Of a stretch of 64,000 nt of DNA, positions 4,850-39,764 are shown in pieces. A program made the position numbers and the translations under genes. Source of the stretch: Pandoraea iniqua (GTDB lineage: Bacteria; Pseudomonadota; Gammaproteobacteria; Burkholderiales; Burkholderiaceae). Location of the stretch: NCBI RefSeq assembly GCF_902459685.1, contig NZ_CABPSF010000004.1, positions 62,001-126,000 of the forward strand, read 5' to 3'. Position 1 is the first letter of the stretch. Each line of letters opens with the position of its first letter. The notes under the pieces were generated by a model. That model was given only the letters and a program-made list of their open reading frames with translations. It was not told the DNA's origin and ran no database searches.

Positions 4850-5042
4850 GCGCAATTATACCGGCTTATCTCCGTCCAACCGGCGGGGTGCCGGTGCCGC
4901 CATACTGGGCGCCGTGCCGCCGCAGCGGGCTGCTGCCGCGGGCTGCAGCCGCTCTCCCCGATGCACCATTGCTGCCCGGGGCCACCCGGCGTAGCATGGC
5001 CTTGCCTGTCGATGACTCGTCCCATTCCTGCCGAGGTTTTTC

Positions 5043-8000
5043 ATGCCTGCGCATCCGGAAGAGAAGGTCCGCCAGCACATGGCGGAAGTCGTGACCATGG
5101 CGCGCGAGCGCGCGCCCGACGTCGCTGCCCAGTTCGAACCCTTCGTATTGCATTACTACGGTCTGGCCGATGCCGAGGAAGTCGTCTCGCGCAGTGTCGC
5201 CGATCTTTATGGCGCGGCGATGGCGCATTGGCAACTGGGGCAGAAATTCGTGTCCGGCCAGCCCCGCATCCGTATCTACAACCCCACTCTCGACCAGCAC
5301 GGCTGGCATTGCAGCCACACGGTGGTCGAGATCGTCAACGACGACATGCCGTTTCTCGTCGATTCGGTGACGATGGAAATCAACCGGCAGGGGCTGGCGC
5401 TCCATTCGGCGTTCCACCCGGTCTATCGCGTCACCCGTGACAGCACCGGCAAACGCGTTGCCGTCGCCCCCGGCGGCGGTATCCGGCGCAGCACCATGCC
5501 GGCCATCGGCGACGGGGCCAGCGCAGGCAGTGCGAGTGGCAAAGCGGGGCGGGGCGGCACGGGGAACGGCGGTGCTGCGGGCGCGGCGCAAGTCGGCGCG
5601 CTGCTTGGCGCCACCCCTGCGAACGGCGCGGCCGCGTCAGCGGGCGAGGGCGGTGGCGGTGGCGGTGGCGGCAGTCAGGATGGCGGTCGCTTCGAATCGT
5701 ATATCCACGTCGAAGTCGACCGTTTCTCTGAACCGGAGCGCATACAGGCGCTTGCCGACGGCCTGCAACGCGTGCTCGGCGACGTGCGCGCGGCCGTGGA
5801 GGACTGGCGGGCGATGCAGGCGGCCGCCCACGCCGCCATCGAGGCACTCACCCAGCGGGCGGCGCAGAAGGGCGTGAGCGAGCAGGAGCGGGCGGAGGTG
5901 GACGAGGCGCAGGCCTTCCTCGACTGGATGCTCGGGCGCCACTTCACCTTCCTTGGTTATCGCGATTACGAGCTCGTGGAGCGCGACGGCGCGCACTATC
6001 TGCAAGGTGTGGCAGGGACCGGGCTGGGCGTGTTGCGCGAATCGCGCCGCGACGCCGCCTCGCCCGACGTCACCCGTCTGTCGCCGGGCGCCATCGGCAT
6101 CGTGGAAGCCAGCACGCCGATATTCCTCACCAAGGCGAACTCGCGCGCCACCGTGCACCGGCCGGGCTATCTGGACTATGTGGGCGTGAAGCGCTTCGAC
6201 GCGCAGGGCCGCGTCTGCGGCGAGCGCCGCTTTCTGGGCTTGTACACGTCAACCGTCTATATGGTGCCGGTGGAAGATATCCCGCTGGTGCGCCGCAAAG
6301 TCGCCGAAGTGATCGGGCGCACGGGCTTCCTGCCCAACGGCCATCTGGCCAAGACGCTGGTCACCATTCTCGAACAGTACCCGCGCGACGAACTCTTTCA
6401 GATCGATGTCGACGCGCTGGCCGAAATTGCGCTCGGCATTCTGCGCTTGCAGGAGCGCCAGCGCACGCGGCTCTTTGTGCGGCGCGACCGGTTCGACCGC
6501 TTTGTGTCGTGCATGGTGTTCGTACCGCGCGAGAAATTTAATACCGACCTGCGCGTGCGCGTGCAGAACCTGTTGCTGGCGGCCTATCACGGCACCGGCG
6601 TGGAATTTACGCCGCAACTCTCCGAGTCGATGCTCGCGCGGATTCACATTACCGTGCGCACCGAGCCCGGCCATGTGCCCGACGTCGATGTGAACGAACT
6701 CGAAGCGCGCATCGTCGAGACGTCGCGCCGCTGGCAGGACGACCTGTCGGAAGCCCTGCGCGAGCAATTGGGCGAAGAGCGGGGCATGCGGGCACTGCGT
6801 CGCTACGCGCAGGCGTTCCCCGCCGGGTATCGCGAAGACTATGCCGCGCGTGTGGCAGTGCGTGACGTGGAGTTGATCGAGCCGCTGCTGGGCGCGCGCC
6901 AGTCGGCCACCGGTTGCTCGCAATTGTCGATGCAGCTTTATCGTCCACTCGAAGCCTCCCCCGGCGCTTTGCGTTTCAAGATTTATCAGGCGGGCGAACC
7001 GATCGCCCTCTCGCGCAGCCTGCCGATGCTGGAGCATCTGGGCGTGCGCGTGAACGACGAGCGGCCGTATCGTATCGAAACGGCCGACTCGGGCGCGATC
7101 TGGATGCATGACTTCGGCATGACGAGCCTCGATGGCGCCGACGTCGATCTCGAACAGGCGCGGGCGCGTTTCGAAGACGCCTTCGCGCGTATCTGGGCGG
7201 GCGACGTCGAGAACGACGATCTGAACCGGCTGGTCTTGCAGGCCGGGCTCACATGGCGCGAAGTGCGCATTCTGCGTGCGTACGCCAAGTACATCCGCCA
7301 AGTCGGCTCGACGTTCAGCAATGCCTATATAGAGAGCGCGCTGACGGGCAATCCGTCGATTGCAGGGCTGCTCGTGCGGCTGTTCCTTGCGCGCTTCGAC
7401 CCGGCACTCCCGGCCGAGACCCGTACTCACCAGTCGGAGCGGTTGCGCGCACAGATTCACGCGGCGCTCGAAGACGTACCCAATCTCGACGAAGACCGGA
7501 TCCTGCGCCAGTTCCTCGGGGTGCTGGAGGCGACGCTGCGCACCAACTACTTCCAGCGCGGGAAGGACGGCACCACGCAGAAGCCTTATCTGTCGTTCAA
7601 ATTCGATCCGTCGAAGGTGCCGGGCTTGCCCGAACCTAAGCCGATGTTCGAGATCTGGGTGTATTCGCCACGGGTCGAAGGCGTGCACCTGCGCGGCGGG
7701 CGAGTCGCGCGTGGTGGTCTGCGCTGGTCCGACCGCCGGGAAGACTTCCGCACCGAAGTGCTGGGCCTCGTTAAAGCTCAGATGGTGAAAAACACCGTGA
7801 TCGTGCCGGTGGGCTCGAAGGGTGGTTTCGTCGTCAAGCAGCCACCGGCACCGGGCGATCGCGACGCTTTTCTGGCCGAAGGTGTGGCCTGCTATCAGAC
7901 CTTCCTGCGCGGTTTGCTCGATCTGACCGACAACTACGTCGATGGCCAGCTCGTGGCACCGGCCGACACTGTGCGATACGACGCGGACGATCCGTATCTC

Positions 8001-10145
8001 GTGGTGGCGGCCGACAAGGGCACGGCCACCTTCTCCGACTATGCGAATGCCATTTCGGCGGAGTACGGCTTCTGGCTGGGCGACGCGTTTGCGTCGGGCG
8101 GTTCGGTCGGCTACGACCACAAGAAGATGGCAATCACCGCACGTGGCGCGTGGGAGTCGGTCAAGCGGCATTTCAGCGAGATGGGCATCGATACGCAGAC
8201 GCAGGACTTCAGCGTGGTGGGTATCGGCGATATGTCGGGCGACGTGTTCGGCAACGGCATGCTGCTCTCGAAGCACATCCGGCTGGTGGCGGCGTTCGAT
8301 CACCGGCATATCTTTCTCGATCCGTCGCCCGATGCGGCCGTCTCGTTCGCCGAGCGCGAACGGCTGTTCCAACTGCCGCGCTCCAGTTGGGGCGACTACG
8401 ACGTCAAACTGATTTCTGCCGGTGGCGGCATCTTTCCCCGCAGTGCCAAGACGATAGCGCTCTCACCCGAGGTGCGGGAACTGATCGAGACGGACGCCAC
8501 CGAAATGGCCCCGACCGACCTGTTGCGCGCCTTGCTGAAGGCGCCTGTCGACCTGCTCTACAACGGCGGCATCGGCACCTACGTGAAGGCGAGTACAGAA
8601 TCGCACGCGCAAGTCGGCGACCGCGCCAACGACGGCCTGCGCGTGAACGGGCTCGATCTGCGATGCAAGGTCGTGGCGGAAGGCGGCAATCTCGGACTGA
8701 CGCAGTTGGGCCGTATCGAATACGCGCAGCACGGCGGACGGATCAACACCGACGCGATCGACAACTCGGCGGGTGTCGATTGTTCCGATCACGAGGTGAA
8801 CATCAAGATTCTGCTGGGCATTGTGGTGGCCGATGGCGAGATGACGCTCAAGCAGCGCAACACGTTGCTCGCCGAGATGACCGAAGAAGTCGGCACGCTG
8901 GTGCTTCGCGACAACTATCTGCAAACGCAGGCGTTGTCGCTCGGGCGTTTGCGTGCGGCAGCGGCGCTCGATGGCGACGCCCGGTTCATGCGGTATCTCG
9001 AACGGGCCCAGCGGCTTGCCCGCGCCATTGAATTCCTGCCCGACGACGAGGCGCTCGACGCACGCCGCGCTGCGGGGACGGGGCTCACGTCGCCCGAACG
9101 TGCCGTGCTCATGGCTTACAGCAAGATGTGGCTGTACGACATGCTGCTCGCCAGCACGCTGCCCGATGCGGAATTTGTGGCGGAAGAGCTGCCGACGTAT
9201 TTCCCGACGCCCTTGGCGAGCCGATGCGGTGCGGCCATGACACGCCACCCGCTCAAGCGCGAAATTCTGGCGACGATGCACGCCAATGCGCTCGTCAACC
9301 GGGCGGGCGTGACGTTCGTGCACCATTTGAGCGAGGAGACGGGGGCCGACCCGGTCGATGTCGTGCGCGCGAGTCTTGCCGCGCGCGGTGTCTACGGGCT
9401 CGACGCCTTGTGGGAAGAGGTTGACGCGCTCGATGCCCGCGTGTCGCATGAAACGCAGGCGGCGCTGTTCACCGCGCTGGCGCAGTGGCACGAGCAGGCG
9501 ACGCTGTGGTTCCTGCGTCGTCGCCTGACGGACGTGCCGCAAACGGTGGAGCGCATGCGCGGCGTGCTCGATCCGTTGCTGCCGACGCTCGACTCGCTGG
9601 TGAGTGGCGAAGCGGCCGACGAAGCGCGGGCGAAGCGGCAGACCTTCGTCGATGCGGGGGTGCCACCGGCACTGGCGCAGACAGCGGCCGGCATCGGCGC
9701 ACGCGTGGCGTTACTCGATATTGCCGAAGTGGCGAGCACCAGCCGGTGTGAACCGGCGCTGGCGGCGCAGGTGTATTTCGCGCTCGATCAGCCGCTGGGC
9801 TATGGCTGGCTGCATGCGGGTGTGCTCGGACTGCCGGTGCAATCGCATTGGCAGCGTCTGGCGCGCGCCACGTTGTTGGAGGAACTGTCGATCCTGCGGC
9901 GGCGCTTGACGGCGAGCGTGCTCGACGGCGCACCGACCGAGACAACGGATGCGGCATCAGACAAGACCGCCACGGCGCCGTCCAGCAGCACTCAAGCCGA
10001 CACCCGGGTGGCCGACTGGCAGCAGGCCCATGCCGACTCGCTGGCGCGCTATCACCGTGTGCTGGCCGATCAGGTGGCGGCGGGCAATGCGGATCTGGCG
10101 ATGCTCTCGGTCAGTTTGAAATCGCTCGCGGAAGTGGGGCGGTGA
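5043..10145 (+). CDS. NAD-specific glutamate dehydrogenase, large (about 180 kDa) type
   Basis: A 1700-residue member of the large NAD-dependent glutamate dehydrogenase family, which converts glutamate to 2-oxoglutarate and ammonia in the cytoplasm and works mainly in the catabolic direction. The long N-terminal half carries the ACT-like regulatory region. The catalytic core includes VPVGSKGGFVVKQ (about residue 925), GYDHKKMAITARGAWES (about 1022), VVGIGDMSGDVFGNGML (about 1060) and AEGGNLGLTQLGRIEYA (about 1215). Family members are usually near 1600 residues. The excess comes from a Gly/Ala/Ser-rich insert at about residues 145-220 (including a run of nine glycines) and a Thr/Ser-rich patch near 1640-1660. 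It is transcribed alone, divergently from dbpA. Allosteric control, known for this family, is not visible here. Confidence 0.95.
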   Translation: MPAHPEEKVRQHMAEVVTMARERAPDVAAQFEPFVLHYYGLADAEEVVSRSVADLYGAAMAHWQLGQKFVSGQPRIRIYNPTLDQHGWHCSHTVVEIVNDDMPFLVDSVTMEINRQGLALHSAFHPVYRVTRDSTGKRVAVAPGGGIRRSTMPAIGDGASAGSASGKAGRGGTGNGGAAGAAQVGALLGATPANGAAASAGEGGGGGGGGSQDGGRFESYIHVEVDRFSEPERIQALADGLQRVLGDVRAAVEDWRAMQAAAHAAIEALTQRAAQKGVSEQERAEVDEAQAFLDWMLGRHFTFLGYRDYELVERDGAHYLQGVAGTGLGVLRESRRDAASPDVTRLSPGAIGIVEASTPIFLTKANSRATVHRPGYLDYVGVKRFDAQGRVCGERRFLGLYTSTVYMVPVEDIPLVRRKVAEVIGRTGFLPNGHLAKTLVTILEQYPRDELFQIDVDALAEIALGILRLQERQRTRLFVRRDRFDRFVSCMVFVPREKFNTDLRVRVQNLLLAAYHGTGVEFTPQLSESMLARIHITVRTEPGHVPDVDVNELEARIVETSRRWQDDLSEALREQLGEERGMRALRRYAQAFPAGYREDYAARVAVRDVELIEPLLGARQSATGCSQLSMQLYRPLEASPGALRFKIYQAGEPIALSRSLPMLEHLGVRVNDERPYRIETADSGAIWMHDFGMTSLDGADVDLEQARARFEDAFARIWAGDVENDDLNRLVLQAGLTWREVRILRAYAKYIRQVGSTFSNAYIESALTGNPSIAGLLVRLFLARFDPALPAETRTHQSERLRAQIHAALEDVPNLDEDRILRQFLGVLEATLRTNYFQRGKDGTTQKPYLSFKFDPSKVPGLPEPKPMFEIWVYSPRVEGVHLRGGRVARGGLRWSDRREDFRTEVLGLVKAQMVKNTVIVPVGSKGGFVVKQPPAPGDRDAFLAEGVACYQTFLRGLLDLTDNYVDGQLVAPADTVRYDADDPYLVVAADKGTATFSDYANAISAEYGFWLGDAFASGGSVGYDHKKMAITARGAWESVKRHFSEMGIDTQTQDFSVVGIGDMSGDVFGNGMLLSKHIRLVAAFDHRHIFLDPSPDAAVSFAERERLFQLPRSSWGDYDVKLISAGGGIFPRSAKTIALSPEVRELIETDATEMAPTDLLRALLKAPVDLLYNGGIGTYVKASTESHAQVGDRANDGLRVNGLDLRCKVVAEGGNLGLTQLGRIEYAQHGGRINTDAIDNSAGVDCSDHEVNIKILLGIVVADGEMTLKQRNTLLAEMTEEVGTLVLRDNYLQTQALSLGRLRAAAALDGDARFMRYLERAQRLARAIEFLPDDEALDARRAAGTGLTSPERAVLMAYSKMWLYDMLLASTLPDAEFVAEELPTYFPTPLASRCGAAMTRHPLKREILATMHANALVNRAGVTFVHHLSEETGADPVDVVRASLAARGVYGLDALWEEVDALDARVSHETQAALFTALAQWHEQATLWFLRRRLTDVPQTVERMRGVLDPLLPTLDSLVSGEAADEARAKRQTFVDAGVPPALAQTAAGIGARVALLDIAEVASTSRCEPALAAQVYFALDQPLGYGWLHAGVLGLPVQSHWQRLARATLLEELSILRRRLTASVLDGAPTETTDAASDKTATAPSSSTQADTRVADWQQAHADSLARYHRVLADQVAAGNADLAMLSVSLKSLAEVGR

Positions 10146-10162
10146 CGTTGTCGTACCACCTT

Positions 10163-10222
10163 GCCGCCTCCTTGGCGGCGTGTTGACGGGTTCCATAAGG
10201 GGCGGGGATTCTCCCCCGCCCC
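10163..10222 (+). terminator. Tandem hairpins after the glutamate dehydrogenase gene
   Basis: Two GC-rich hairpins follow the stop codon. GCCGCC (10163-10168) pairs with GGCGGC (10174-10179). GGGGCGGGG (10199-10207) pairs with CCCCGCCCC (10214-10222) around a six-base loop. There is no run of U after either, so intrinsic termination is uncertain; they may instead protect the 3' end. Confidence 0.4.
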
Positions 10223-10422
10223 GGCACATCTTCCATTCCAAAATGTGTGTGATTGAGTCATCGCACCTCATCATTTCCGTCAACTATTAAGCGTTTACAC
10301 AAAAGACGCAAAACGGCGTATCATTCGGGAAAACCCTAGGATTGAATTAGCCCGCGCGAATGCTTGCCCATTGCGCGGGTTGTTACGTCCTGGGGTTTCG
10401 TCGATTCTCTTTTCCCTTCGCA

Positions 10423-11685
10423 ATGTCAAACGACGCCCGCACCCCTACGCAGTTTGCGACGACGCTCCAAATCGTCTCGACCGTGTTCTTCACTTTCCTC
10501 TGCTATCTGACGATTGGCTTGCCGCTCGCGGTGCTGCCGTCGTTCGTGCATGTGGACTTGGCTTACAGCTCCGTCATTGCCGGTCTGGCGATCAGCGTGC
10601 AGTACTTGGCGACGTTGCTTTCGCGCCCGTACGCCGGTCGCACGGCGGATGCGTGGGGACCGAAACGAACGGTGTTGTGCGGTCTGGTCGCCTGCGGCGC
10701 ATCGGGCTTGCTCGTGGCGCTCGCTGGTGTGTTCTCCGGCCTGCCGTGGCTCTCGTTGGTGGCTCTGATCCTCGGTCGTCTGGTACTGGGCTTTGGTGAA
10801 AGCTGGGTCTCGACCGGCGCGATCATGTGGGGCATTGGGCAGGTGGGTCCGGCGAACACGGCGCGGGTGATTTCGTGGAACGGTGTGGCGACTTACGGCG
10901 CGCTGGCGCTGGGCGCTCCGCTCGGTGTGGCGCTCGATAACGCGTACGGTATCGAGGCATTGGGTGGCGCGATTGCGCTGTCGGGTGTCGTTGGTTTGCT
11001 GCTGGCCCGCATCAAGCGCGCGACGCCGGTGATTCATGGCGAGCGTCTCGCGTTTCGTGCCGTGCTGGGCCGCGTGATGCCGTTCGGCATGGGGCTGGCG
11101 TTGGGCTCGATCGGGTTCGGGGCGATCTCCACGTTCATTACGCTGTACTACGCCAGCCATCATTGGGACAACGCCGCGCTCGCACTGACCGCGTTCGGCG
11201 TGTGTTTCATGGGCGTGCGGCTGGCGCTGGGCAGCAGCATCGCGCGCTTCGGCGGTTATCGCGTGGCGATGGTGTCGTTCGCACTGGAAGCCTTCGGCTT
11301 GATCGTGCTCGGCGTGGCCCCGACCGGCTTTACGGCGTTGTTGGGCGCGGCGCTTGCGGGCGCGGGCTTCTCGCTGGTGTTCCCGTCGCTGGGAGTGGCT
11401 GCGGTGAACTTGGTGCCCGCACAGAATCGCGGCGCGGCGCTGGGTGCCTACTCGGTGTTTCTCGACGTTGCACTCGGCGTGACCGGGCCGGTCGCCGGCC
11501 TGATCGTGGGCGCCTATGGTTATGCCGAGGTGTACCTGTGTGCTGCCGTGGCCGCCATTGCTGCGGTGCTGCTCACGGTCTGGATGTCGCGTGCTGCCCG
11601 GGCGCGTGCGGCCAGTGAAGCGCAGGAAGCCGGCGAGGCAGGCAAGGCAGCCGGCAACGCCAAGAAAGCCCCCCAAGCCGCGTAA
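10423..11685 (+). CDS. MFS transporter, YhhS/YfcJ-like
   Basis: A 420-residue major facilitator with about 12 membrane segments. The N-terminal half has [20 protein letters not shown] and the loop [20 protein letters not shown] between helices 2 and 3, the signature region of the YhhS/YfcJ drug-or-sugar efflux group. The Ala/Lys-rich tail (about residues 395-420) is cytoplasmic and probably disordered. The ATG at 10423 is preferred; a longer frame from 10360 begins in unconserved sequence. The substrate is unknown. A second protein of the same family lies at 22777-23982 and shares the same opening topology and RTAD loop, so the window holds two paralogues. No regulator gene is adjacent. Confidence 0.88.
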
Positions 11686-12002
11686 TCTCCACGACTCCTG
11701 CACGGCGGCGAAAGGCCGCCGCTGCGGAGAGCATGCGCCGCTGACGCATCGATGGGTATCTACCCATAACGCGTGCACTCCAGCGATCTCTCGAAAGAAT
11801 CCCCGTACATTGCGAACACGCCCTCGGATGTCCCGAGGTCTGATGAAAATATTTCGGTATCCGAAGTGATATATGGTCAGAGAGCGATTGGAAGAAGTGC
11901 TGGTTTACCGGCGCTTCGGTGACCAAGTGACGTAAGCCGACATCTTCCGGGTTGCCGGCATGTTCATTGCGTCAGGGCTCCGGATCTTTTTGCGAGGCAG
12001 TG
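11686..12002. other. Intergenic region with short inverted repeats
   Basis: No gene is evident. A small hairpin CGGCGGC-GAAAG-GCCGCCG (11703-11721) follows the MFS stop. A near-perfect operator-like palindrome, ATGGGTA-TC-TACCCAT, lies at 11752-11767. The rest is AT-richer than its surroundings and presumably carries the promoter of the small secreted protein gene that follows. Confidence 0.4.
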
Positions 12003-12446
12003 ATGGCAAGCGGACGGGCAATAGCAGCAGTATTGGTGACATTGGCGCTTGTGATGGCCGCGCGCTCAATGCGCCCATCGGCATCACAATCCGAGTCTGT
12101 CCCTCAGCGATGTCATGTTTCTCAGGAGGTTGTTCGACTGATGGGGGCGAGGGAATATGCGATGCTCAGTCATCAGGGTGACGACTGGTTGCCCCTGATG
12201 GCGACCCCCGGTGGCGGGCGTGACGATGCGCCGCCCATGCTCGTCAACTGCACCTATGCGCTGGCTTCTGATGCGGGCGTAGACGCGTTCTATTGGCCGG
12301 CAGGGACCAAGGCGGATACCTCGTTGCCCTTGGATGCGAGGCGTTTAAGTGTTCCGAAGGGACCTTTCGGCACGCTGATGTCGCTCTGCAATACGGGGGC
12401 GGGCTCCGGACAGGGATGGTGCAAGGGCGGACCGGGCGGCGCGTGA
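12003..12446 (+). CDS. Small secreted protein of unknown function
   Basis: A 147-residue protein opening MASGRAIAAVLVTLALVMAA, a plausible signal peptide or membrane anchor, followed by a mainly hydrophilic domain with four cysteines (in QRCHV, VNCTY, SLCNT and GWCKG) that could form two disulfides in the periplasm. The ATG at 12003 follows a GAGG-like ribosome site; a start at 11952 would put extra polar residues before the hydrophobic core. The Gly-rich C-terminus (GQGWCKGGPGGA) ends one base before the stop of the convergent MocR gene. I do not recognise the family. Codon positions look coding, but similarity support is needed. Confidence 0.6.
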   Translation: MASGRAIAAVLVTLALVMAARSMRPSASQSESVPQRCHVSQEVVRLMGAREYAMLSHQGDDWLPLMATPGGGRDDAPPMLVNCTYALASDAGVDAFYWPAGTKADTSLPLDARRLSVPKGPFGTLMSLCNTGAGSGQGWCKGGPGGA

Positions 12447-12447
12447 A

Positions 12448-14106
12448 TCACCGGCCCACTTTCCCTTGAGCGGCCACGATCGCAGCCAGCCGTTTGATGA
12501 GCGACGGAATGCGCGCCGCGTCCGTATCGCCGTAGCCGATGACGAGCCCGTTATCGGCCGGTTGCGGATCGAGCGCGAAGCTGGAGAGCGCTCGTGGTCC
12601 CATGCCTTCGCGCAAGGCGGACGCCACAATCGTTTTGTCGTGGAATGTGGGATCGAGGCGTACCGTCAGGTGCAGGCCGCAACGCTCGCCGATGACCGCG
12701 TATGCCGGGTCGAAGTGTTCCGCAAGCGCTTCACGCAGGGCCGTCTGGCGCTCGCGATACAGGCGTCGCATGCGCCCCAGATGTCGCGCGAATTGTCCGC
12801 TGCGGATGAAGTCTGCCAATGCCAGTTGTTCGAAACGATGCCCGCCGCGAAGCAGTTCGTCGAGGGCGTCTCGCGTTTGCGCGGCCAGTTGCGTCGGCAA
12901 GATCAGAAAACCGAGCCGCAGCGCCGGAAACATCGTCTTGCTGAACGTGCCGACGTAGACCACCGGCGCGTCGGGCACCATGCCCTGCATAGCAGCGATC
13001 GGTTCCCCTTGATGGCGAAACTCGCTGTCGTAATCGTCTTCCAGAATCCACGTGCCGTAGTGGCGTGCCTGCGCGATGAGATCGAGCCGGCGCGACGCCG
13101 ACAGCACGCTGCCCAGTGGGTATTGGTGCGAGGGCGTGACGTACACCAGACGCGGCGTCGACGCGGCCCACGCGCCCGGCGGAATCACGATGCCTTCATC
13201 GTCCACGCGCATGGCTTGCACACGCACATCGCTCGCGTGAAAGGCGGCTTTGGCACCGCGATAGCCCGGGTCTTCCATCCACACCGTGTCGCCGGGGTCG
13301 GTGAGCAGACGCACGCAGAGAATTAGCGCTTCGTGGGCACCTTCCGTGATGACGACTTGTGAGGCGTCGCAACGCACGCCGCGAGAGATGCGCAGGTGTT
13401 CGGCGATGGCTTCGCGCAGCGCCGGTTCGCCCAGCGGATCGCCGTAGTGATAGTGGCGCGGTTGCGCTTCGCGCATCACACGCTCAAGGGTGCGGCGCCA
13501 TGTGCTGGCCGGAAAGCGTGTAAGGGAGGGCACGCCGGGCACGAAAGGCAGGGGCGATTCGTTCGCCCGCGCTGCGTGACTTGTGGCGGGCAAGCGCTGC
13601 ACCCGGCGTGACGCGCTGGGCGCGGCGGCAGGTGAGTCGCTGGCGTTGGCCTCGGGGGCCGGGCGCGCGACGTCGGTGTTCGTGGTTTTGGTGAGGGCCG
13701 AGTCCGCAGCCGAGTCCGCAGCCGATCTAAGGCGGGCCGACTGTCTGGCGGCTTCTTCGGCGACACGCGGGTCGAGCGAGAGCTGGGCGACACGGGTGCC
13801 GAGCCGGTGCGGCACGATGAAGCCTTCGGCGGCCAGTTGGTCGTAGACGATCGACACCGTATTGCGCGAGACGGCCAGATCTTCAGCGAGCGTACGCGAG
13901 GCGGGCAGACGCGCCCCGGCGGGCAGCCGCCCTTCGAGAATGGCGTGCTTGAGCCGGGCGAGCAGTTGTTTCTGGAGCGAGAGGCCACGCCCCGTGCCGG
14001 TGTTCAGCGGGCTGTCGAACAGCGCGGCGACGTTCTCGGGCCCGGGATCGGTGTGAGTCTCACTGGCGTGCTTGGCGGATACGGATTCGGATACGGATAC
14101 GGACAT
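12448..14106 (-). CDS. MocR/PdxR-type regulator (GntR winged helix fused to aminotransferase-like domain)
   Basis: A 552-residue MocR-family protein. The GntR-type winged helix is at about residues 40-110 (LKHAILEGRLPAGARLPASR, then AEDLAVSRNTVSIVYDQL). A class-I aminotransferase-like domain follows from about residue 190, with PLGEPALREAIAEHL, the PLP region (VYVGTFSKTMFPALRLGF, where the Schiff-base Lys is the K of FSKTMF) and a C-terminal SSFALDP segment. Family members such as PdxR and GabR sense PLP or PLP adducts. The linker between domains is long (about 80 residues, Ala/Ser/Pro/Thr-rich), making the protein longer than the usual ~480. It is divergent from the acetyltransferase gene, which is a possible target. 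Confidence 0.9.
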   Translation of the reverse strand: MSVSVSESVSAKHASETHTDPGPENVAALFDSPLNTGTGRGLSLQKQLLARLKHAILEGRLPAGARLPASRTLAEDLAVSRNTVSIVYDQLAAEGFIVPHRLGTRVAQLSLDPRVAEEAARQSARLRSAADSAADSALTKTTNTDVARPAPEANASDSPAAAPSASRRVQRLPATSHAARANESPLPFVPGVPSLTRFPASTWRRTLERVMREAQPRHYHYGDPLGEPALREAIAEHLRISRGVRCDASQVVITEGAHEALILCVRLLTDPGDTVWMEDPGYRGAKAAFHASDVRVQAMRVDDEGIVIPPGAWAASTPRLVYVTPSHQYPLGSVLSASRRLDLIAQARHYGTWILEDDYDSEFRHQGEPIAAMQGMVPDAPVVYVGTFSKTMFPALRLGFLILPTQLAAQTRDALDELLRGGHRFEQLALADFIRSGQFARHLGRMRRLYRERQTALREALAEHFDPAYAVIGERCGLHLTVRLDPTFHDKTIVASALREGMGPRALSSFALDPQPADNGLVIGYGDTDAARIPSLIKRLAAIVAAQGKVGR

Positions 14107-14214
14107 GGCGTGGCACCATTAGATTGCTTCGTTATGGTGCTTTTTATCGTACCATCAATGCGTTACTTTGGTGTCGTGACACTTGCGTCCATCACGTTCC
14201 TGGAGAGGACATTC

Positions 14215-14940
14215 ATGACCGAAGCAACGCTGTTCAACGAATACGATCAACCTATCGGGCCGCCCGTGCCGGATTGGACGCCGCGCGCACAGCCGCCCCG
14301 CACCGCCATCACCGGCCGTTACTGCCGCGTCGAACCGCTCGATGTGGAGCGTCACGCGAAGGATTTGTTCGACGCCTACGCGAGCGCCCCCGACGGGCGT
14401 GACTGGACTTATCTGGGCGTCGGTCCGTTCGCCGATTTCGATAACTATTACACGCATGCCACCAAGCAGGCCGCGTCCACCGACCCGATGCACCATGCGG
14501 TGATCGATCTGGAGACGGGCAAGGCCGTGGGCACGCTCGCGCTCATGCGCATCGACACGGCGAATGGCGTGATCGAAGTGGGCCACGTCGCGTACTCGCC
14601 GCTGCTCAAGCGTACCCGCGCGGGCACGGAAGCGCAGTATCTGCTGCTCAAGCGCGCCTTCGACGAGTTGGGATATCGCCGCTACGAATGGAAGTGCGAC
14701 GCGTTGAATGCGCCGTCGCGCCGGGCAGCTACGCGTTACGGCTTCACGTTCGAGGGTGTTTTCCGTCAGGCGATCATCTACCGTGGCCGCAGCCGCGACA
14801 CGGCGTGGTTCTCGATCACGGACGGCGAGTGGCCCGCCATCAGCCGTGGTTTTTCGCAGTGGTTGTCGCCGGAGAACTTCGATGCCGAGGGTGAGCATCG
14901 GGCGAGTCTGGCCGAACTGATTTCGGTCGCGAAGGGATAA
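14215..14940 (+). CDS. GNAT-family N-acetyltransferase
   Basis: A 241-residue acetyltransferase of the RimJ/RimL type (Acetyltransf_3). The core runs from the substrate-side GRYCRVEPLDVERHAKDLF (about residue 36) through HHAVIDLETGKAVGTLALM to EVGHVAYSPLLKRTRAGTEA, which holds the acetyl-CoA pyrophosphate loop, and then [20 protein letters not shown], typical of the family. The ATG at 14215 has an excellent ribosome site (GGAGAGGA, 14202-14209). The gene is divergent from the MocR regulator; a regulator-enzyme pairing is plausible but unproven. The acceptor (a small amine, an antibiotic or a protein N-terminus) cannot be read from the sequence. A strong bidirectional terminator follows. Confidence 0.9.
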   Translation: MTEATLFNEYDQPIGPPVPDWTPRAQPPRTAITGRYCRVEPLDVERHAKDLFDAYASAPDGRDWTYLGVGPFADFDNYYTHATKQAASTDPMHHAVIDLETGKAVGTLALMRIDTANGVIEVGHVAYSPLLKRTRAGTEAQYLLLKRAFDELGYRRYEWKCDALNAPSRRAATRYGFTFEGVFRQAIIYRGRSRDTAWFSITDGEWPAISRGFSQWLSPENFDAEGEHRASLAELISVAKG

Positions 14941-14951
14941 CCTTCCAATAA

Positions 14952-14989
14952 AAAACGCCCCGCTGGAACCGATTCCAGCGGGGCGTTTT
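14952..14989. terminator. Strong bidirectional intrinsic terminator
   Basis: A perfect 17-bp stem (14952-14968 with 14973-14989) around the four-base loop CCGA, with an A-tract on the left and a T-tract on the right. It lies between the acetyltransferase gene (+) and the purine permease gene (-), so it can end transcription from both sides. Confidence 0.95.
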
Positions 14990-15054
14990 GTCGTTTAGAG
15001 ACTGGCGTTGCGTGTTGCGGTACTGCTTGCCAGTCTCGCCGGGTTCGCGGCGTA

Positions 15055-16347
15055 TTACCCCGGGAAGAACGCGTACTTCAACACGAACAGCACGGCGATG
15101 ACCCATGCGGCCGGGTGCACGTCCTTCGCACGGCCCGTGAACAGCTTGAGCACGGCGTACGAAATGAAGCCGAAGGCCAGACCCGTCGCGATCGAGTACG
15201 TGAACGGCATGGCCAGCGCGGTCAGGGCCGCCGGGGTGGCTTCCGTGATGTCGTCCCATTCCACGTCGAGCAGTTCGCGCAGCATCAGGCCAGCCACGTA
15301 GAGCAGGGCCGGGGCCGCGGCGTAGGCCGGGACCGAACCGGCGAGCGGTGCGACGAACAGCGCCAGAATGAACAACCCGGCGATGGTCAGAGCGGTGAGG
15401 CCCGTACGGCCACCCGCTTGCACGCCCGAGGCGCTTTCCACGTAGGCGGTGGTGCTGCTCGTACCCAACAGCGAGCCGAAGAAGATGGCGATCGAGTCGG
15501 CGAACAGTGCGCGTCCCAGCCCCTTGTATTGCGTGCCTTCGAGGAGACCGGCGCGCTTGGCCACACCCATCAGCGTGCCGGTCGCGTCGAACACTTCAAC
15601 CAGCACGAAGGCCAGAATCACGTGAACGAAGCCAGCGTGCAGTGCACCGGGAATATCGAGCTGGAGGAACGTCGGCGCGAGGCTCGGCGGCATGGCGAAC
15701 ACGCCTTGAAACTGGTTCAGGCCGAACACCATCGAGAGCACCGTCACGGCGAGAATGCCGATCAGGATGGCACCCCGAATGCGCAGGGCATCGAGCACGG
15801 CGATCAGGAAGAAACCGAAGATCGCGAGCAGCGCTTGCGGCGAGTGCAGATCGCCGAGGCCGATCTTGGTGGCCGGGTTGGCCACGACGATGCCGGCGTT
15901 ACCCAGTGCGATGATCGCGAGGAACAGACCGATACCGGCCGCGATGGCGCAGCGTAGCGATTTGGGTACCCCGGCAATGAGCCACGATCGCACCCCAGTC
16001 ACGGTCAGGATGATGAAAATACACCCTGAGATGAAGACTGCGCCCAGCGCCTGCTGCCAGGTGTAGCCCATGGCCCCCACCACGGTGAACGCGAAGAAGG
16101 CGTTCAGGCCCATACCGGGCGCCATGCCGATCGGGTAGTTGGCCACGAAGGCCATGATCACCGAGCCAATCGCCGCCGCCAGACATGTCGCCACGAACAC
16201 GGCACTCTTGTCCATGCCGGTGGTGCCGAGAATGTTGGGGTTGACGAAGATGATGTAAGACATCGTCAGGAAGGTGGTGAGACCTGCCACCATTTCTGTC
16301 CTGACATTGGAGCCATGCTCCTCGAGTTTGAAGAATTTGGTCAGCAA
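15055..16347 (-). CDS. Purine (adenine/guanine/hypoxanthine) permease, NCS2 AzgA-like family
   Basis: A 430-residue inner-membrane permease of the AzgA/GhxP/PbuG branch of the nucleobase transporters, which import purine bases with protons. Recognisable segments are FKLEEHGSNVRTEMVAGLTT at the N-terminus, TMSYIIFVNPNILGTTGMD, MAPGMGLNAFFAFTVVGAMG (substrate-site region) and LLGTSSTTAYVESASGVQAG, followed by further helices. The start is a TTG at 16347: an in-frame stop lies just upstream and an AGGAG site sits six bases before it, which decides the start. The length is normal. It is transcribed on the same strand as, and downstream of, the porin gene (90-bp gap). Confidence 0.93.
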   Translation of the reverse strand: MLTKFFKLEEHGSNVRTEMVAGLTTFLTMSYIIFVNPNILGTTGMDKSAVFVATCLAAAIGSVIMAFVANYPIGMAPGMGLNAFFAFTVVGAMGYTWQQALGAVFISGCIFIILTVTGVRSWLIAGVPKSLRCAIAAGIGLFLAIIALGNAGIVVANPATKIGLGDLHSPQALLAIFGFFLIAVLDALRIRGAILIGILAVTVLSMVFGLNQFQGVFAMPPSLAPTFLQLDIPGALHAGFVHVILAFVLVEVFDATGTLMGVAKRAGLLEGTQYKGLGRALFADSIAIFFGSLLGTSSTTAYVESASGVQAGGRTGLTALTIAGLFILALFVAPLAGSVPAYAAAPALLYVAGLMLRELLDVEWDDITEATPAALTALAMPFTYSIATGLAFGFISYAVLKLFTGRAKDVHPAAWVIAVLFVLKYAFFPG

Positions 16348-33270: not shown

Positions 33271-34974
33271 ATGCGACTTATCGTTAGCTTGCTTCTGACG
33301 CTGCTTCTGGCGGCTTGTGCCAGTACAGCGCCACCTACAGGTGCATCGAATTCCACGCCCGAAGCGCAGAGCAAGTCGCCGCTCGCATCGAATGCCAAGG
33401 GAAAGCAACGCGTGTCGAGCGATCAGACGATCGACCTTGATACCGACTCGATCAACGATCTGGCCTACGGCAGCGACGATGCCGATCTGTGGGCCCGCAT
33501 CCGTCACGGCTTCTCCATCCCCGATCTCGACACCGACCTCGCGCAGGACCGCACGCAGTGGTACGCGCAGCGCCCCGAGTACGTGGAGCGCATGATCGAG
33601 CGTTCGAACAAGTATCTGTTCCATATCGTTGAAGAACTCGAGCGCCGTCATATGCCGACGGAACTCGCGCTGCTGCCGTTCGTGGAAAGCGCTTACAACC
33701 CGCAAGCGCTGTCGACGGCCAAGGCCGCCGGCATGTGGCAGTTCATCCCGAGCACCGGCAAGACGTACAACCTGAAGCAGAACATGTTCCAGGACGAGCG
33801 CCGCGACGTGCTCGCCTCGACCACCGCCGCGCTGGACTACCTGTCGAAGCTGTATGCGATGTTCGGCGACTGGCATCTGGCACTGGCCGCCTACAACTGG
33901 GGCGAAGGCAATGTGCAGCGCGCCATCGACCGCAATCAGGCGCAAGGGCTGCCGACCGATTACCTGAGCCTGCGCATGCCGACCGAGACGCGTTACTACG
34001 TGCCGAAGTTGCAGGCGATCAAGAACATCATTGCGCACCCGGAGCTCTACAGCGTGAAGCTGCCGGAGATTCCGAATCACCCGTATTTCGTGAGCGTCAC
34101 CACCAAGCGTGACATCGACGTGGCGCTGGCTGCCAAGCTGGCCGATCTGCCGCTCGATGAATTCCGCGCGCTCAACCCGTCGTTCCGCAAGCCGGTGATT
34201 CTTGGTGCTGCCCAGCCGCAGATTCTGCTGCCGTTCGATAGCGCCGAAGTTTTCCAGAAGCGCCTGAAGGGTTACGACAAGCCGCTGTCGAGCTGGACGA
34301 CGTACACGTCGGCATCGCGCGAGCGCCCGGAAGACGTGGCTCGCAAGCTCGGCGTCGACGCGGCCGTGATTCGCTCGGTGAATAACATTGCGCCGCGCAT
34401 GCGTCTGAAGGCGGGTTCCACGTTGCTGGTGCCGCGCTCGGATGACATCGACGAAGACATCAGCGCATCGGTGGCCACCAACGCCGTGCTGGCGCTGGAG
34501 CCGGATCTGCCCGACACCCGCAAGGTGATGGTGCGCGCCCGCAAGCACGACACGCTCGCCGCCGTGGCATCGCGCAGCGGTGTGTCCGTGGCCCAGATCA
34601 AGGGCTGGAACCATCTGCGCCGCGACGCGCTGACCAGCGGGCAACTGCTGGTGCTGCACGTGCCGGTGAAGGACGCGTCCCGTGTGTTGGCGGCTTCGGC
34701 AGCGCCTGCCGCTGCTGTCGCCTCGGCCAGCAAGGATGACGACGACGCACCGCGTACGCGCCTGGTCAAGGGCAAGAACGGCAAGATGATTCGCGTGGTC
34801 GACCACCGTCCGGCCACCAAGCCGGCCAAGGCTGTGGCATCGAACACCAAGGCTGCGCCAGCCAAGTCGGTGAGCAAAGCACCGGTGAAAGCCGCTGCCA
34901 AGACGGTCGCTAAAACGGCGGCAAAGCCGGCCGCCAAGGCCCCGGCCAAGGTCACGAAGACCGCACAGCGCTAA
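33271..34974 (+). CDS. mltD: Membrane-bound lytic murein transglycosylase D
   Basis: A 567-residue lipoprotein that cleaves peptidoglycan glycan strands to 1,6-anhydro ends. The signal ends in a lipobox (LLAACAS, Cys at about residue 15). The lytic transglycosylase domain includes ELALLPFVESAYNPQALSTA, with the catalytic Glu in FVES (about residue 139), then KAAGMWQFIPSTGKTYNLKQ and ALAAYNWGEGNVQRAI. Two LysM-like segments follow, at about residues 345-390 (PEDVARKLGVDAAVIRSVNN) and 425-470 (DTLAAVASRSGVSVAQIKGW). The last 80 residues are Lys/Ala/Pro repeats (VKAAAKTVAKTAAKPAAKAP), a positively charged tail that is unusual in length. A strong terminator follows. Confidence 0.95.
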   Translation: MRLIVSLLLTLLLAACASTAPPTGASNSTPEAQSKSPLASNAKGKQRVSSDQTIDLDTDSINDLAYGSDDADLWARIRHGFSIPDLDTDLAQDRTQWYAQRPEYVERMIERSNKYLFHIVEELERRHMPTELALLPFVESAYNPQALSTAKAAGMWQFIPSTGKTYNLKQNMFQDERRDVLASTTAALDYLSKLYAMFGDWHLALAAYNWGEGNVQRAIDRNQAQGLPTDYLSLRMPTETRYYVPKLQAIKNIIAHPELYSVKLPEIPNHPYFVSVTTKRDIDVALAAKLADLPLDEFRALNPSFRKPVILGAAQPQILLPFDSAEVFQKRLKGYDKPLSSWTTYTSASRERPEDVARKLGVDAAVIRSVNNIAPRMRLKAGSTLLVPRSDDIDEDISASVATNAVLALEPDLPDTRKVMVRARKHDTLAAVASRSGVSVAQIKGWNHLRRDALTSGQLLVLHVPVKDASRVLAASAAPAAAVASASKDDDDAPRTRLVKGKNGKMIRVVDHRPATKPAKAVASNTKAAPAKSVSKAPVKAAAKTVAKTAAKPAAKAPAKVTKTAQR

Positions 34975-35004
34975 GCCGACAGACGCCGCACAACGTTGTA
35001 CCCG

Positions 35005-35041
35005 ACGCCCGTGAGATCACTCTCACGGGCGTTTTGTTTTT
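35005..35041 (+). terminator. Intrinsic terminator after mltD
   Basis: ACGCCCGTGAGA (35005-35016) pairs with TCTCACGGGCGT (35021-35032) around TCAC, followed by TTTGTTTTT. It insulates the lasso-peptide cluster from mltD. Confidence 0.95.
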
Positions 35042-35157
35042 CCCCTCGGTAATCCGCTGCCGCTTCCGGGCACATCCCTTCGGAAAATTCCCATAAATGC
35101 ATTGGCTCTCGTTTCCTATGATGGAGACGCGGACGATTCCGTTCGTACTCACGAGAT

Positions 35158-35169: not shown

Positions 35170-35352
35170 ATGAATAAGGCAATGGCAACTGCGCAAGAAG
35201 TGACCGAACTCGAAGTGCTGGCCTCTGTGGATGCCACGCATGCCACGCGGGGCGTGCTTGGCAACGACGCGGAAGGCATCACGCTCCTGCCGCTGTGCTT
35301 CAAGCCGATCTGCATTCCCACGCTGCCGCCGCTGACCGGGGGCCATGCCTGA
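35170..35352 (+). CDS. Lasso peptide precursor (A), pandonodin-like
   Basis: A 60-residue precursor. The leader is about 27 residues and ends HATR; the Thr is at the -2 position, the hallmark of lasso leaders. The predicted core of 33 residues begins GVLGNDAEG: Gly1 would be joined by an amide bond to Glu8, giving an 8-residue ring. (Asp6 is too near for a normal ring.) The tail is exceptionally long, about 25 residues, Pro/Leu-rich, with two cysteines (core positions 16 and 20, in LCFKPICIP) that could form a tail disulfide, and it ends PLTGGHA. This matches my memory of pandonodin from Pandoraea norimbergensis, which has these traits; identity should be checked. The stop overlaps the start of the next gene by 8 bp. 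Confidence 0.92.
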
Positions 35353-36106
35353 AGTGTCCGACCCGACACACATCGAAACCGGCGCGTGTGCGGACGCGCC
35401 GGTTTTCCGTCATCTGGCACCCGATGTTCACATCGCGGGTATCGACGGCCATGTCGTGGTGCTCAAGCTCTCGCACGACCGCTACTTCAATCTTTCCCAC
35501 AAGCACTCGCAGGGGTTGCGCCGCTTGATCGGCTGGCGCAACGACGGGGACATCTCCGCTGACATGCTGCTCGTCATGCAAGCGATGTTCGACGCGCAAG
35601 GCATTCTGGCACCCGGCGCTCACACCGCGCCAGATCCCCGTATTGCGAAACGCGATATGCCGCCGCGCCTCGGCTTCGACGCGTGGCTGGCGATGCCGGC
35701 CGACGTGACTCGCGAGTCGCGGGTGCGCGATGTAATGCGCGCGGGTTACTGGCTCTGGCAGGCCCAGCGCGTGACGCGGCGCGCGCGCATGCGCGGGGTG
35801 GTCGACATGGTGGCGCGCTCGCAATCGGGCGTTCGCACACAGTACGGCGCGCCGCAGGACTACCTGCCCTACGTGGCCGCCATGCACAGCGCTGCGCTCG
35901 TGTATCCGCAATGTTCCCCGTGCCTGCCTTGGTATGCCGCCCTTACCGCTTGGTGCGCACGTGACAGCCTGCGACTGCGTCTGGTGATCGGTGTACAGCG
36001 GCAGCCCTTCTATGCGCACGCGTGGACGGAGACCGACGCACGGGTGATCGGTGACGACCTGCGCCGGCGCGAGCAACTCGCCGTGATCTACGAGACACCG
36101 GTCTGA
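35345..36106 (+). CDS. Lasso peptide maturation protein B (leader-binding domain fused to leader protease)
   Basis: A 253-residue protein. The N-terminal part (about residues 20-90, from [20 protein letters not shown] and [19 protein letters not shown]) resembles the PqqD-like recognition element (B1) that binds precursor leaders. The C-terminal part is the transglutaminase-like cysteine protease (B2), with candidate catalytic residues Cys193 in [11 protein letters not shown], His225 in PFYAHAW and Asp237 or Asp238 in RVIGDD. It would remove the leader just before Gly1 of the core. In many actinobacterial clusters B1 and B2 are separate genes; the fused form is normal in proteobacteria (McjB, CapB). 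Its start lies inside the precursor gene's 3' end, so translation is coupled. Confidence 0.92.
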
Positions 36107-36186
36107 CGCGCGTGCGAATCGAGAATCGATGTCGCGCCGATTATCGGATCCCTGAAGCCTTCCCGCATTCACGCACGGAGCCACTG

Positions 36187-37944
36187 ATGAAACTTGCCCG
36201 CCTGAGACCGGGACCTGCCGAGCGACACGAGCCCATTCCCGACGCCGTGGTGATGCGCGGTCTGGATGGCGTGCCGGTGGCGCGCATTCGTCCCGATGCC
36301 GACAGCACGCGGCTGCATTCGAGCGGGCAGAGCGAACTGCTGGCCTGGTACATCAGCGGCACGTTGTTTCTCAAGGAAGATGGCCGTGAGGTCGCCCCCG
36401 GCATGGATGTGGCGCGGCTGGCGCTGGAATCGCCCGAGCGCTTTGTCGAGCGCTACTGGGGACACTACCGTGTGATCGTGCATGACCGATGGCGCGGCAC
36501 GACGCTTGTGCTGTGCGACCCGTGCGGCCATTGCCCGACGTACTACCGCTTTTGTCACGATGGCGCCGTGCATGTGGCGGCCGACCCGGCGGCACTGGTC
36601 GACGATCATCCCAGCTTCGATAGCCTCGCGCTGAAGTCGTTTCTCGTGCATGGCGATCTGGGCGGCGTGCAGTGTGCGCTTTACGACGTGGAGCGGCTGC
36701 CGCTGGGCCATGCGTTATGGATTCCCGAGCGAGGGGCGCCGCAGACGCGGGTGGTGTGGTGGCCGGACTGGCGCATGACCGATCAGGATGCGCAGACCGC
36801 GGCCTCGGGCGAGGGGTTGCTCCGGCTACTGCGACGTTCGGTGGAGCGTAGTGTCGGCGACCGGCCCGCGGTGCTCGAACTCTCGGGCGGTGTGGAATCG
36901 ACGTCGCTCGCGCTGGCGCTGGCCGAGTCGGGGCGGGCGGATACCTGCACGGCAATCAATCATCGCGATCCGTCGTCGCCGTCGAGCGACGAGTCGCATC
37001 ATGCCGGCAGCGTCGCGCGTCATGTGCGCATGGCCTTCGAGCGGCTGGATATCGATTACGCAGCGTTCTCGCCATCGCCGTCGTCGGCAATTCCGCGTCT
37101 CGCCCGCCCGGCGCTGCATCTGTGCATGCTGGCGCAGCTCGACGCCGTGCGTGAGCGGCTGAGTGCCTACAGCGGCCATCGGCTGGTGAACGGGCACGGT
37201 GGCGATGCCATCTTTCTTGCGCCGCCGCCCAATGGGGCGTTTCTCGATGCTGTTGCCGACGGTCAATGGCGCCGGGCGTTCAGCGCGTGGCGCGATCTGG
37301 CCGTGATGCAGCGCTTGCCGCTGTGGTGGGTCGCGCAGGGCGCGTTCGCGCAGCTCGGGCAGCGTCACGCGAACCCGGATGCCGCGCTCTCGACGGGGCT
37401 GCTCACGCCGGCGGCCCGCATTGCCGATACGCCGCGCACGGAACCGCTGGCCTCGGCGTGGCTGTCGCGCTGGACGTTGCGCGTGCGTCCGGGCAAGCGG
37501 GCGCAGATCCTCGGCATTCTCGGCAATCTGCGCGACGTGGAGGTGCAGCCCTCGCTCGCCGCGGCCGGCACGGCGTTCCCGTTCCTCACGCAGCCGGTGG
37601 TCGAGGCGGGGCTGAAGATGCCGACCTACCGTCTGTTCAATGCGATGCATAACCGCTTGCCGTTGCGCCGGGCAGCGTATCTGGCGAGTGGTTTGCCGAA
37701 TCTGTGGCGACGCGACAAGGGCGTGTTGACGGGCATGGTGGGGGCGGGCGCGGCGGCGAATCTGGCCCACATCGAGGAGGTCTGTCTCGATGGCTATTGC
37801 GCGGCGTCGGGCTGGATCGATCGCGATGCCTGCCGCCGGGCGATTGGCCGCATGGCGCACCATCATCTCGAATCGATGACGACGATCCGCCGGCTCTATG
37901 CCATCGAAATGTTTGTACGCGGCTGGCGCGCGGGCGCGGTATGA
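36187..37944 (+). CDS. Lasso cyclase C (asparagine-synthetase-like)
   Basis: A 585-residue homologue of class-B asparagine synthetase that activates the side-chain carboxylate of the ring residue (predicted Glu8) with ATP and joins it to the freed Gly1 amine. The ATP-pyrophosphatase motif is LELSGGVESTSLALAL (about residue 232, SGGxxS). The N-terminal quarter is a degenerate glutaminase-like domain without the catalytic N-terminal Cys, as is normal in lasso cyclases. The ATG at 36187 is chosen for its GGAG site six bases upstream; a GTG at 36112 would close the gap to the B gene and cannot be excluded. The stop overlaps the ATG of the exporter gene (ATGA). Confidence 0.92.
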   Translation: MKLARLRPGPAERHEPIPDAVVMRGLDGVPVARIRPDADSTRLHSSGQSELLAWYISGTLFLKEDGREVAPGMDVARLALESPERFVERYWGHYRVIVHDRWRGTTLVLCDPCGHCPTYYRFCHDGAVHVAADPAALVDDHPSFDSLALKSFLVHGDLGGVQCALYDVERLPLGHALWIPERGAPQTRVVWWPDWRMTDQDAQTAASGEGLLRLLRRSVERSVGDRPAVLELSGGVESTSLALALAESGRADTCTAINHRDPSSPSSDESHHAGSVARHVRMAFERLDIDYAAFSPSPSSAIPRLARPALHLCMLAQLDAVRERLSAYSGHRLVNGHGGDAIFLAPPPNGAFLDAVADGQWRRAFSAWRDLAVMQRLPLWWVAQGAFAQLGQRHANPDAALSTGLLTPAARIADTPRTEPLASAWLSRWTLRVRPGKRAQILGILGNLRDVEVQPSLAAAGTAFPFLTQPVVEAGLKMPTYRLFNAMHNRLPLRRAAYLASGLPNLWRRDKGVLTGMVGAGAAANLAHIEEVCLDGYCAASGWIDRDACRRAIGRMAHHHLESMTTIRRLYAIEMFVRGWRAGAV

Positions 37945-39764
37945 CGCGGCAGGGCGGCTGGCGGGCGTTATGTTTTGTGCTGCGAAAGCTCTGGGAGCGC
38001 GAGACGCAGACATCGCAACATCGTGTCTGGGTGGCGCTGGCGGCGCTGGCGGCTGCATTCATGCTTGCGCTGCGGCTTGTGGCGCCGTGGGTACTCGGGC
38101 TTGCCGTCGATGCGCTGACGGGCGAACGGGCAGTGGGTTTCGCGATGCCATTGGCGACGGCTTATGTGGTGCTGTGGTCGGCGGCGGCCATTGGCGAGCG
38201 TGGCAAAGACCTGTTAATTCAGCGCGCGATGGAAGATCTGCGGCGCCGCACGGCCCTCGGTTATCTTTCGCGGCTTGTCGGTCTGCCGGCCCATCGCGCA
38301 CGCGAGGTGAACGCGGGGCAGACGCTGGATTGCCTGTTTCGCGTCGAGGTGGCATTGCCCGTCATCGTGACCGGTCTGGTGTTCGGTTTGCTGCCGCTGG
38401 CCATGCAGGTGATGGCGACAGGCATCATTCTGATGGTCAACTTCGGTGTGATTTACGGGGTGTTGCTGGGCGCCACGGTGGTGGCCTATGGACTGACGTT
38501 GCGCCCATCACTCGCCCGCGTAACGCGCCGCGAAGCGCAGGCGAACGATATTTCTCGCGCGACGACAGGGGCGCTCGCCGACACGCTGACGCAACTCGAA
38601 TGCGTGAAGACGTTTGCGCAGGAGCCTGCGGAGATCGGACGGCTGTCGCAGCGTCTGCGCACGCGCTATGTAGCGGCGCTGGCGACGGCGAAGACGGCAC
38701 AGGTCACCAGCGCGTGTCAGATGGCGATCATGGCGCTCGGGGTGTCGGCTATGACGTTGCTCGCTGTGCGCGACGTCATGCGCGGGGCGGAACCGGTCGG
38801 CACGCTGGTGCAGATCAACGCCTATCTGCTGCAATTCGCCTTACCTGCGGCGATGTTAGGCGCACTGGTGTCGCAAGTGGCACGCGCGCTGGTGAGTGTC
38901 GATGAGCATCTGCATGATGCGACGAACGTGACGAGTGGGATGGGGATGATGGCGATGGCGGAATCCGGCGGCGAGGCGCGTGCAAGCGAGCCGGTGGCCA
39001 CGGCGGCGATTTCACCGTCTCGTGCCCCGTGCATCGATCTCGATCAGGCCAGTGTGACGTTGCATGACGGCACGCCCATCGTGGCGCGCGTCAGCCTGAG
39101 GGTTCGTGCCGGAGAATATGTGGCGATCGTCGGGCCGTCAGGGGCTGGCAAATCCACGTTGTTACGCCTGATGGCAGGGCTTACGTTGCCGGCGCAGGGG
39201 CAGGTACGCATCGATGGCCGTGCGCTGAACGGCGCCGCTGCGACGGCACTGCGTCGCGTGACCGGATTCGTCACGCAAGACTGCCGGCTGTTCGACCGCA
39301 CTGTGTTCGAGAATGTCGCCTATCGGGCTGGCTGGTACGGTGAGTCGCTGCCTGACGATGACGTGATTCGCGACGAATTCATGCGTGTGACGGCCCTTGC
39401 CGAAGTGCCGGACGCGATCTCGGTCATGGGGCTGTCCGGCGGGGAGCGTCAACGAGTGAACATCGCTCGCGCCTTGTGGGGACGCCCCCGATTGTTGCTG
39501 TTCGACGAACCCACCGCCGCGCTCGACGCCCTCACCGAAGCCCGCATCCTCAACCGTCTGGCGCACGAACGTGCAGGCGCGACATGCGTGGTCGTGGCCC
39601 ATCGGCTCGCCGCCATTTGTCGCGCCGACCGGATCGTCGTGATGGATCAGGGGCATATCGTCGACGTCGGCGCGCACGCGGCACTGCTCGCGCGCGGCGG
39701 CCTGTACGCGCGCATGTGGCAGGCGCAGCAGGCGGATCTTGAGACGGAAGCCGCACTGGACTGA
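37941..39764 (+). CDS. Lasso peptide ABC exporter D
   Basis: A 607-residue half-transporter with an N-terminal six-helix membrane domain (about residues 25-320) fused to an ATPase. ATPase motifs are Walker A GPSGAGKSTLL (about residue 397), signature LSGGERQRVNIARALW (about 497) and Walker B LLLFDEPTAALDA (about 517), followed by the switch His in VVAHRLAAI. It presumably exports the mature lasso peptide across the inner membrane and gives the producer self-protection, like McjD and CapD. The gene is last in the cluster and overlaps the cyclase gene by 4 bp. Between the two domains is a Gly/Ala/Met-rich linker (about residues 325-355). Confidence 0.93.
   Translation: MTRQGGWRALCFVLRKLWERETQTSQHRVWVALAALAAAFMLALRLVAPWVLGLAVDALTGERAVGFAMPLATAYVVLWSAAAIGERGKDLLIQRAMEDLRRRTALGYLSRLVGLPAHRAREVNAGQTLDCLFRVEVALPVIVTGLVFGLLPLAMQVMATGIILMVNFGVIYGVLLGATVVAYGLTLRPSLARVTRREAQANDISRATTGALADTLTQLECVKTFAQEPAEIGRLSQRLRTRYVAALATAKTAQVTSACQMAIMALGVSAMTLLAVRDVMRGAEPVGTLVQINAYLLQFALPAAMLGALVSQVARALVSVDEHLHDATNVTSGMGMMAMAESGGEARASEPVATAAISPSRAPCIDLDQASVTLHDGTPIVARVSLRVRAGEYVAIVGPSGAGKSTLLRLMAGLTLPAQGQVRIDGRALNGAAATALRRVTGFVTQDCRLFDRTVFENVAYRAGWYGESLPDDDVIRDEFMRVTALAEVPDAISVMGLSGGERQRVNIARALWGRPRLLLFDEPTAALDALTEARILNRLAHERAGATCVVVAHRLAAICRADRIVVMDQGHIVDVGAHAALLARGGLYARMWQAQQADLETEAALD

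Follow-up and report, generated by a model that had tools for sequence, protein, structure and literature searches.

Does the four-gene locus at positions 35170-39764 of the window, the 64,000-nucleotide stretch of Pandoraea iniqua DNA analysed here, encode a lasso-peptide pathway, and is its product a new compound? The genes panA, panB, panC and panD follow each other in this sequence, all on the forward strand (Table 1). panA and panB overlap by 8 bp and panC and panD by 4 bp, and an 80-bp gap separates panB from panC, for which an alternative GTG start at 36112 would give a protein of 610 aa. The initial annotation had described four same-strand genes in the order precursor, fused B protein, cyclase and exporter, and our coordinates and both overlaps agree with it; the gap between panB and panC did not figure there.

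Table 1. Coordinates of the features discussed in the text (window positions, except for the last line)
Feature	Position	Strand	Remarks
Terminator-like hairpin past the upstream lytic transglycosylase gene, cluster border	35004..35033	+	13 pairs, loop 4, T-rich tail
Conserved upstream block TTCGGAAAATTCC ... TTCCTATGATG	35079..35123	+	ahead of panA
panA, precursor gene, whole	35170-35352	+	60 aa
panA leader	35170..35250	+	27 residues, Thr at -2
panA core, pandonodin by its sequence	35251..35349; stop codon 35350-35352	+	33 residues
panB, putative N-terminal RRE-type leader-binding domain fused to a transglutaminase-like cysteine protease	35345..36106	+	253 aa; PF13471, NF033537, invariant residues, low-confidence model
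panC, asparagine-synthase-like macrolactam cyclase	36187..37944	+	585 aa from ATG; PF00733, SGGVES
panD, ABC exporter, membrane domain and ATPase	37941..39764	+	607 aa; PF00664, PF00005
L029 precursor gene, two leader-core units in tandem	10975-11346 (G022:C37)	-	single gene

The precursor and its product

Searched against PDB sequences, the precursor gave a single match up to an E-value of 10, namely 6q1x chain A, Pandonodin. Precursor residues 28-60 are identical to residues 1-33 of this chain (33/33, E = 2.3e-18). The same 33 core letters stand in the table of a 2025 review, where a bond is marked between both cysteines and the peptide is listed as class IV (PMC12427821). The match to pandonodin is taken from the PDB sequence and later papers.

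Leader residues 1-27 end in A-T-R, which places Thr at -2, and the core carries Gly at position 1 and Glu at position 8, with Cys16 and Cys21 in the tail. Lasso precursors generally have Thr at -2, a Gly-type residue at position 1 and Asp or Glu at 7-9, a rule that the ATR before Gly1 and the Glu8 of this core obey. The initial annotation had already pointed out the Thr and had suspected that the peptide may be pandonodin itself and not new. The comparison with published pandonodin that it had proposed bore this out, with all core residues 28-60 identical. Judged by core sequence, the predicted product of the window is pandonodin, for which we computed a monoisotopic mass of 3306.75 (core minus H2O minus 2 H). 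Compound and cluster are already known, and the window adds a further genome from this genus; the reading of the raw sequence holds to the level of the individual compound.

That the product might be a new lasso peptide, similar to pandonodin but distinct from it, could be suspected from the comparison with G015, which we take to be Pandoraea norimbergensis, as the precursors differ at 4/60 residues and the DNA of the region is about 93% identical. However, all four differences lie in the leader, while the core alone makes the product, matches pandonodin at every residue, and is shared by the window, G015 and G022. The core identity with 6q1x_A rules this explanation out and leaves it practically no chance of being correct.

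Enzymes, exporter and borders of the locus

Profile searches placed PanB above the cut-offs of NF033537 (lasso B2; 57.5 bits, cut-off 33) and PF13471 (58.5 bits, cut-off 26). Cys190, Cys193, His225 and Asp237 are invariant in 13/13 aligned B proteins, among them that of a second lasso locus, L029 (see below). A literature search for residue numbers of the lasso protease triad found none; the putative triad, with Cys190 or Cys193 as candidate catalytic cysteine, is assigned from conservation. No PqqD-like domain appeared among the Pfam matches of PanB at E 0.1, and searches of PDB sequences with PanB, singly or as a profile, found no lasso protein and nothing relevant. The AlphaFold model of the whole protein had a mean pLDDT of 48.7. 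The model of the N-terminal part showed three strands followed by helices, with pLDDT values of 57-87 in blocks of residues 21-90. Its first three fold matches were lasso B1 structures that carry leader peptide (5v1u_A, 5v1u_B and 6jx3_B; E 0.036-0.045, probability 1.00), and no match was as good as E 0.001. By fold, in a low-confidence model, this part of PanB is thus a predicted leader-binding RRE domain. Elsewhere in the window genome we observed a second transglutaminase-like match (L002, G000:C5:256970-257128), which scored 21.4 bits against PF13471, below the cut-off.

PanC matched the asparagine synthase family PF00733 (46.3 bits, cut-off 21), which occurs once in the window genome, inside the pan cluster. 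The NCBI lasso-cyclase model NF033535 gave 24 bits, far below its cut-off of 525, and was outscored by other amidotransferase/asparagine synthase models, themselves below their cut-offs. The SGGVES motif of PanC starts at residue 233. A search of PDB sequences with PanC found nothing relevant, and its AlphaFold model had a mean pLDDT of 40.0. For PanD, both PF00664 and PF00005 were above cut-off, Walker A lies at residue 398 and LSGGE at 498, and many ABC exporters were matched among PDB sequences.

The initial annotation had called the locus a lasso-peptide cluster, had noted an SGGxxS cyclase motif and Cys/His/Asp protease residues, and had proposed a profile search of the B and C proteins for lasso homology. 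With NF033537, PF13471 and PF00733 above cut-off and NF033535 far below, SGGVES in PanC, invariant Cys193, His225 and Asp237 in PanB, an ABC exporter as PanD and the core of pandonodin, the call stands.

We propose that PanA is translated and that the N-terminal domain of PanB binds its leader; the cysteine protease of PanB would cut after Arg27, with Thr at -2. PanC would then use ATP to activate the Glu8 side chain and couple it to the amino group that cleavage frees on Gly1, so that a ring of 8 residues encloses the threaded chain; the Gly1-Glu8 link in the window core is our assumption, read from the sequence. In the tail, a disulfide would link Cys16 to Cys21, probably with no enzyme devoted to this step, and PanD would export the mature peptide. 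Gene content, gene order, enzyme family membership and core identity were observed directly; published passages supply the class of the mature peptide, its disulfide and the functions of PanB, PanC and PanD. In these, PanB cuts, PanC closes the ring and PanD is an ABC transporter (PMC13003496), and pandonodin has an 18-residue tail with a tail-tail disulfide (PMC13352647). We put the probability that 35170-39764 is the pandonodin cluster, with the product made by the proposed PanA-PanB-PanC-PanD route, at roughly 97%.

The cluster is preceded by the gene of an SLT/LysM lytic transglycosylase (33271-34974, called mltD) and followed, from 40108, by that of an acetyl-CoA-synthetase-type AMP-binding enzyme. 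We refer to the latter as prpE, a label adopted from the initial annotation; the family seen is acetyl-CoA-synthetase-type. A terminator scan found 4 sites versus a mean of 3.2 in shuffled sequences, a count not above chance; the hairpin past mltD has 13 pairs, as against 5 or 6 in each of the other three terminator-like stems.

Between this hairpin and panA lies a conserved block in which TTCCTATGATG stands 15-25 bases past TTCGGAAAATTCC; TTCGGAAAATTCC and TTTCCTATGATG have one occurrence each in the window genome. The block was found in 16/16 cluster-bearing loci, broken ones included, and as a whole in 0/15 cluster-less sites, one of which (G003, L075) carries the second half alone. A consensus promoter scan at the cluster found none. 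The block is probably the promoter/operator of panA.

Distribution and decay in Pandoraea

Cyclase C was found in 16/32 Pandoraea genomes searched. All 16 have the pan locus flanked by mltD and prpE; the G026 contig stops within prpE. Ten of these genomes (G000, which is the window genome, G015, G022, G019, G026, G024, G009, G004, G006 and G002) have one match apiece to A, B, C and D. That gene order and site recur in 10/16 cyclase-bearing genomes shows that the genes did not come together by chance. It had first been described as a self-contained cassette, for which the borders are fair evidence. We saw no sign of a mobile cassette and rejected that reading, as all Pandoraea genomes found with the cluster carry it at the same site.

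The pandonodin core is found unchanged in G000, G015 and G022, and the other seven intact loci have 2 to 5 core changes. Both cysteines and Glu8 are kept in 10/10 intact loci; Glu8 is missing from the broken L040. Codon differences summed over pairs of the 10 intact loci amount to 140 nonsynonymous and 361 synonymous in the core and to 242 nonsynonymous and 199 synonymous in the leader. Across these loci, constraint is stronger on the core than on the leader.

The cluster is broken in the remaining 6/16 cyclase-bearing genomes. G001 has an internal panA deletion and a fragmented D, G005 keeps only A and C, and G018 only C. In G014 and G010, B is broken and D absent, and in G027 C is split into two pieces in different frames. 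Branch dN/dS values of panC, obtained by counting, are 0.10-0.23 for broken loci and 0.03-0.07 for most intact ones, with L032 (0.16-0.18) and L037 (0.12) as intact exceptions; the window panC has 0.073.

These broken relatives raise the alternative that the window cluster, though its sequence is intact, is silent or has no function in its strain, and the consensus scan, which offered no promoter, points the same way. On the other hand, all four frames are open, the motifs are intact, the conserved upstream block is present, and the dN/dS of the window panC is close to that of most intact loci and lower than in the broken loci. We consider a silent cluster unlikely. The window cluster should be functional, as initially annotated, and its strain presumably produces pandonodin.

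In five loci that have lost other pan genes or carry them in broken form (L036, L038, L039, L040 and L041), panC is still open at 586-611 aa. A cyclase kept where panB and/or panD is lost could have taken on a new job, in line with the open frames and with branch dN/dS values that, although raised, are still well below 1. However, in an alignment of 15 C sequences (L042 and L029 left out) the motif SGGVES has become SGDVAS in L036 and SGDVES in L041, and GHGGD has become GHGGN in L039 and L040. L038 keeps both motifs, but RRDKG is changed to RLDKG and SSDESHHA to SSDASHHA. The dN/dS values are also higher than at most intact loci, and values like these would equally be expected after a recent loss. 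We set a new job aside as very improbable on the motif decay and the raised dN/dS, a contrast that L038, L032 and L037 keep from being clean. As no panC branch comes near 1, all being well below it, the values point to either recent losses or residual constraint.

Among the 16 genomes without C, 15 carry both flank genes; G017 is without a prpE match. The matched stretches of the flank genes are 206-623 bp apart in 14 genomes and 13.6 kb apart in G029. At the cluster-less sites, protein searches for A-D matched nothing at E <= 0.001 except an ABC ATPase in G029. In G003 (L075 1705-2327) the first 323 bp of the gap align with the intact region (76% identity) as far as about 80 bp inside panA, and the match restarts at the panD stop codon. 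This alignment marks the G003 gap as a pan-cluster deletion scar, which retains a panA leader remnant. The stretch in G011, where the match to the intact locus L031 starts about 55 bp before the panD end, is probably a cluster remnant too. In G029 (L085, about 2612-16296), 13.6 kb of other DNA, the ABC ATPase included, lies between prpE and mltD; the site may be open to other inserts.

In a tree of mltD and prpE from 30 genomes, in which several deep nodes have support below 60, one group with support 100 mixes intact (G009, G004) and broken (G001, G018, G027) clusters, and the scarred G003 is sister of the broken G005 (support 85). We read the history of the cluster as one old gain followed by repeated loss; exchange between Pandoraea species is a possible alternative. 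The deepest genomes (G028, G023, G025 and G030) may never have had the cluster. The picture across the genus is one of a fixed site, a conserved core and a drifting leader, with the cluster broken or gone in some lineages, a pattern suggestive of a role that has become dispensable to some Pandoraea species.

A second lasso locus and known systems

G022, which we take to be Pandoraea sp. PE-S2T-3, carries a second lasso locus, L029, outside the window. Its B and C proteins are 54% and 58% identical to those of the pan cluster and its first leader is alike, but it occupies another genomic site and has a two-unit precursor. In unit 1 a leader ending in DATHATQ precedes a core beginning with GGGGQENE, and in unit 2 a leader ending in DATQATK precedes a core beginning with GYDGNWFE. 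The 18.5 kb examined held no panD-like exporter; ABC ATPases were matched there twice, both times weakly (E 9e-5 and 4e-6). A search for the two-core precursor in 299 genomes drawn from the family matched 10, with a whole-length match only in G022; the other nine, all Pandoraea and the window among them, matched over a leader-length stretch (E 0.002-0.008). Among the literature matches listed, titles and abstract openings reported no lasso precursors with several cores. It is conceivable, though somewhat doubtful, that both cores are cut and cyclised into two lasso peptides, the first with the second leader as its tail. If true, L029 exploits the long-tail tolerance known for pandonodin. This two-core precursor is the sole lead that may be new.

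Pandonodin was reportedly described, with panABCD of Pandoraea norimbergensis, by Cheung-Lee, Cao and Link in 2019 (PDB 6Q1X). Published passages name the same source and expression of panABCD in E. coli (PMC7549694). A further passage describes the pandonodin cluster as being without extra genes for the disulfide, and class IV clusters likewise, save for one gene of unproven role in the felipeptin cluster (PMC9266682). The window locus shares with the P. norimbergensis system an identical core, the ABCD gene set, an ABC exporter and the lack of an added tailoring gene. Measured against G015, presumably this species, identities are 93% for the precursor, 95% for B, 97% for C and 87% for D. The predicted N-terminal domain of PanB resembles TbiB1 (5v1u) and the B1 protein of 6jx3 in the fold of its low-confidence model; whereas these are separate proteins, in PanB of the window the putative leader-binding domain is fused to the protease.
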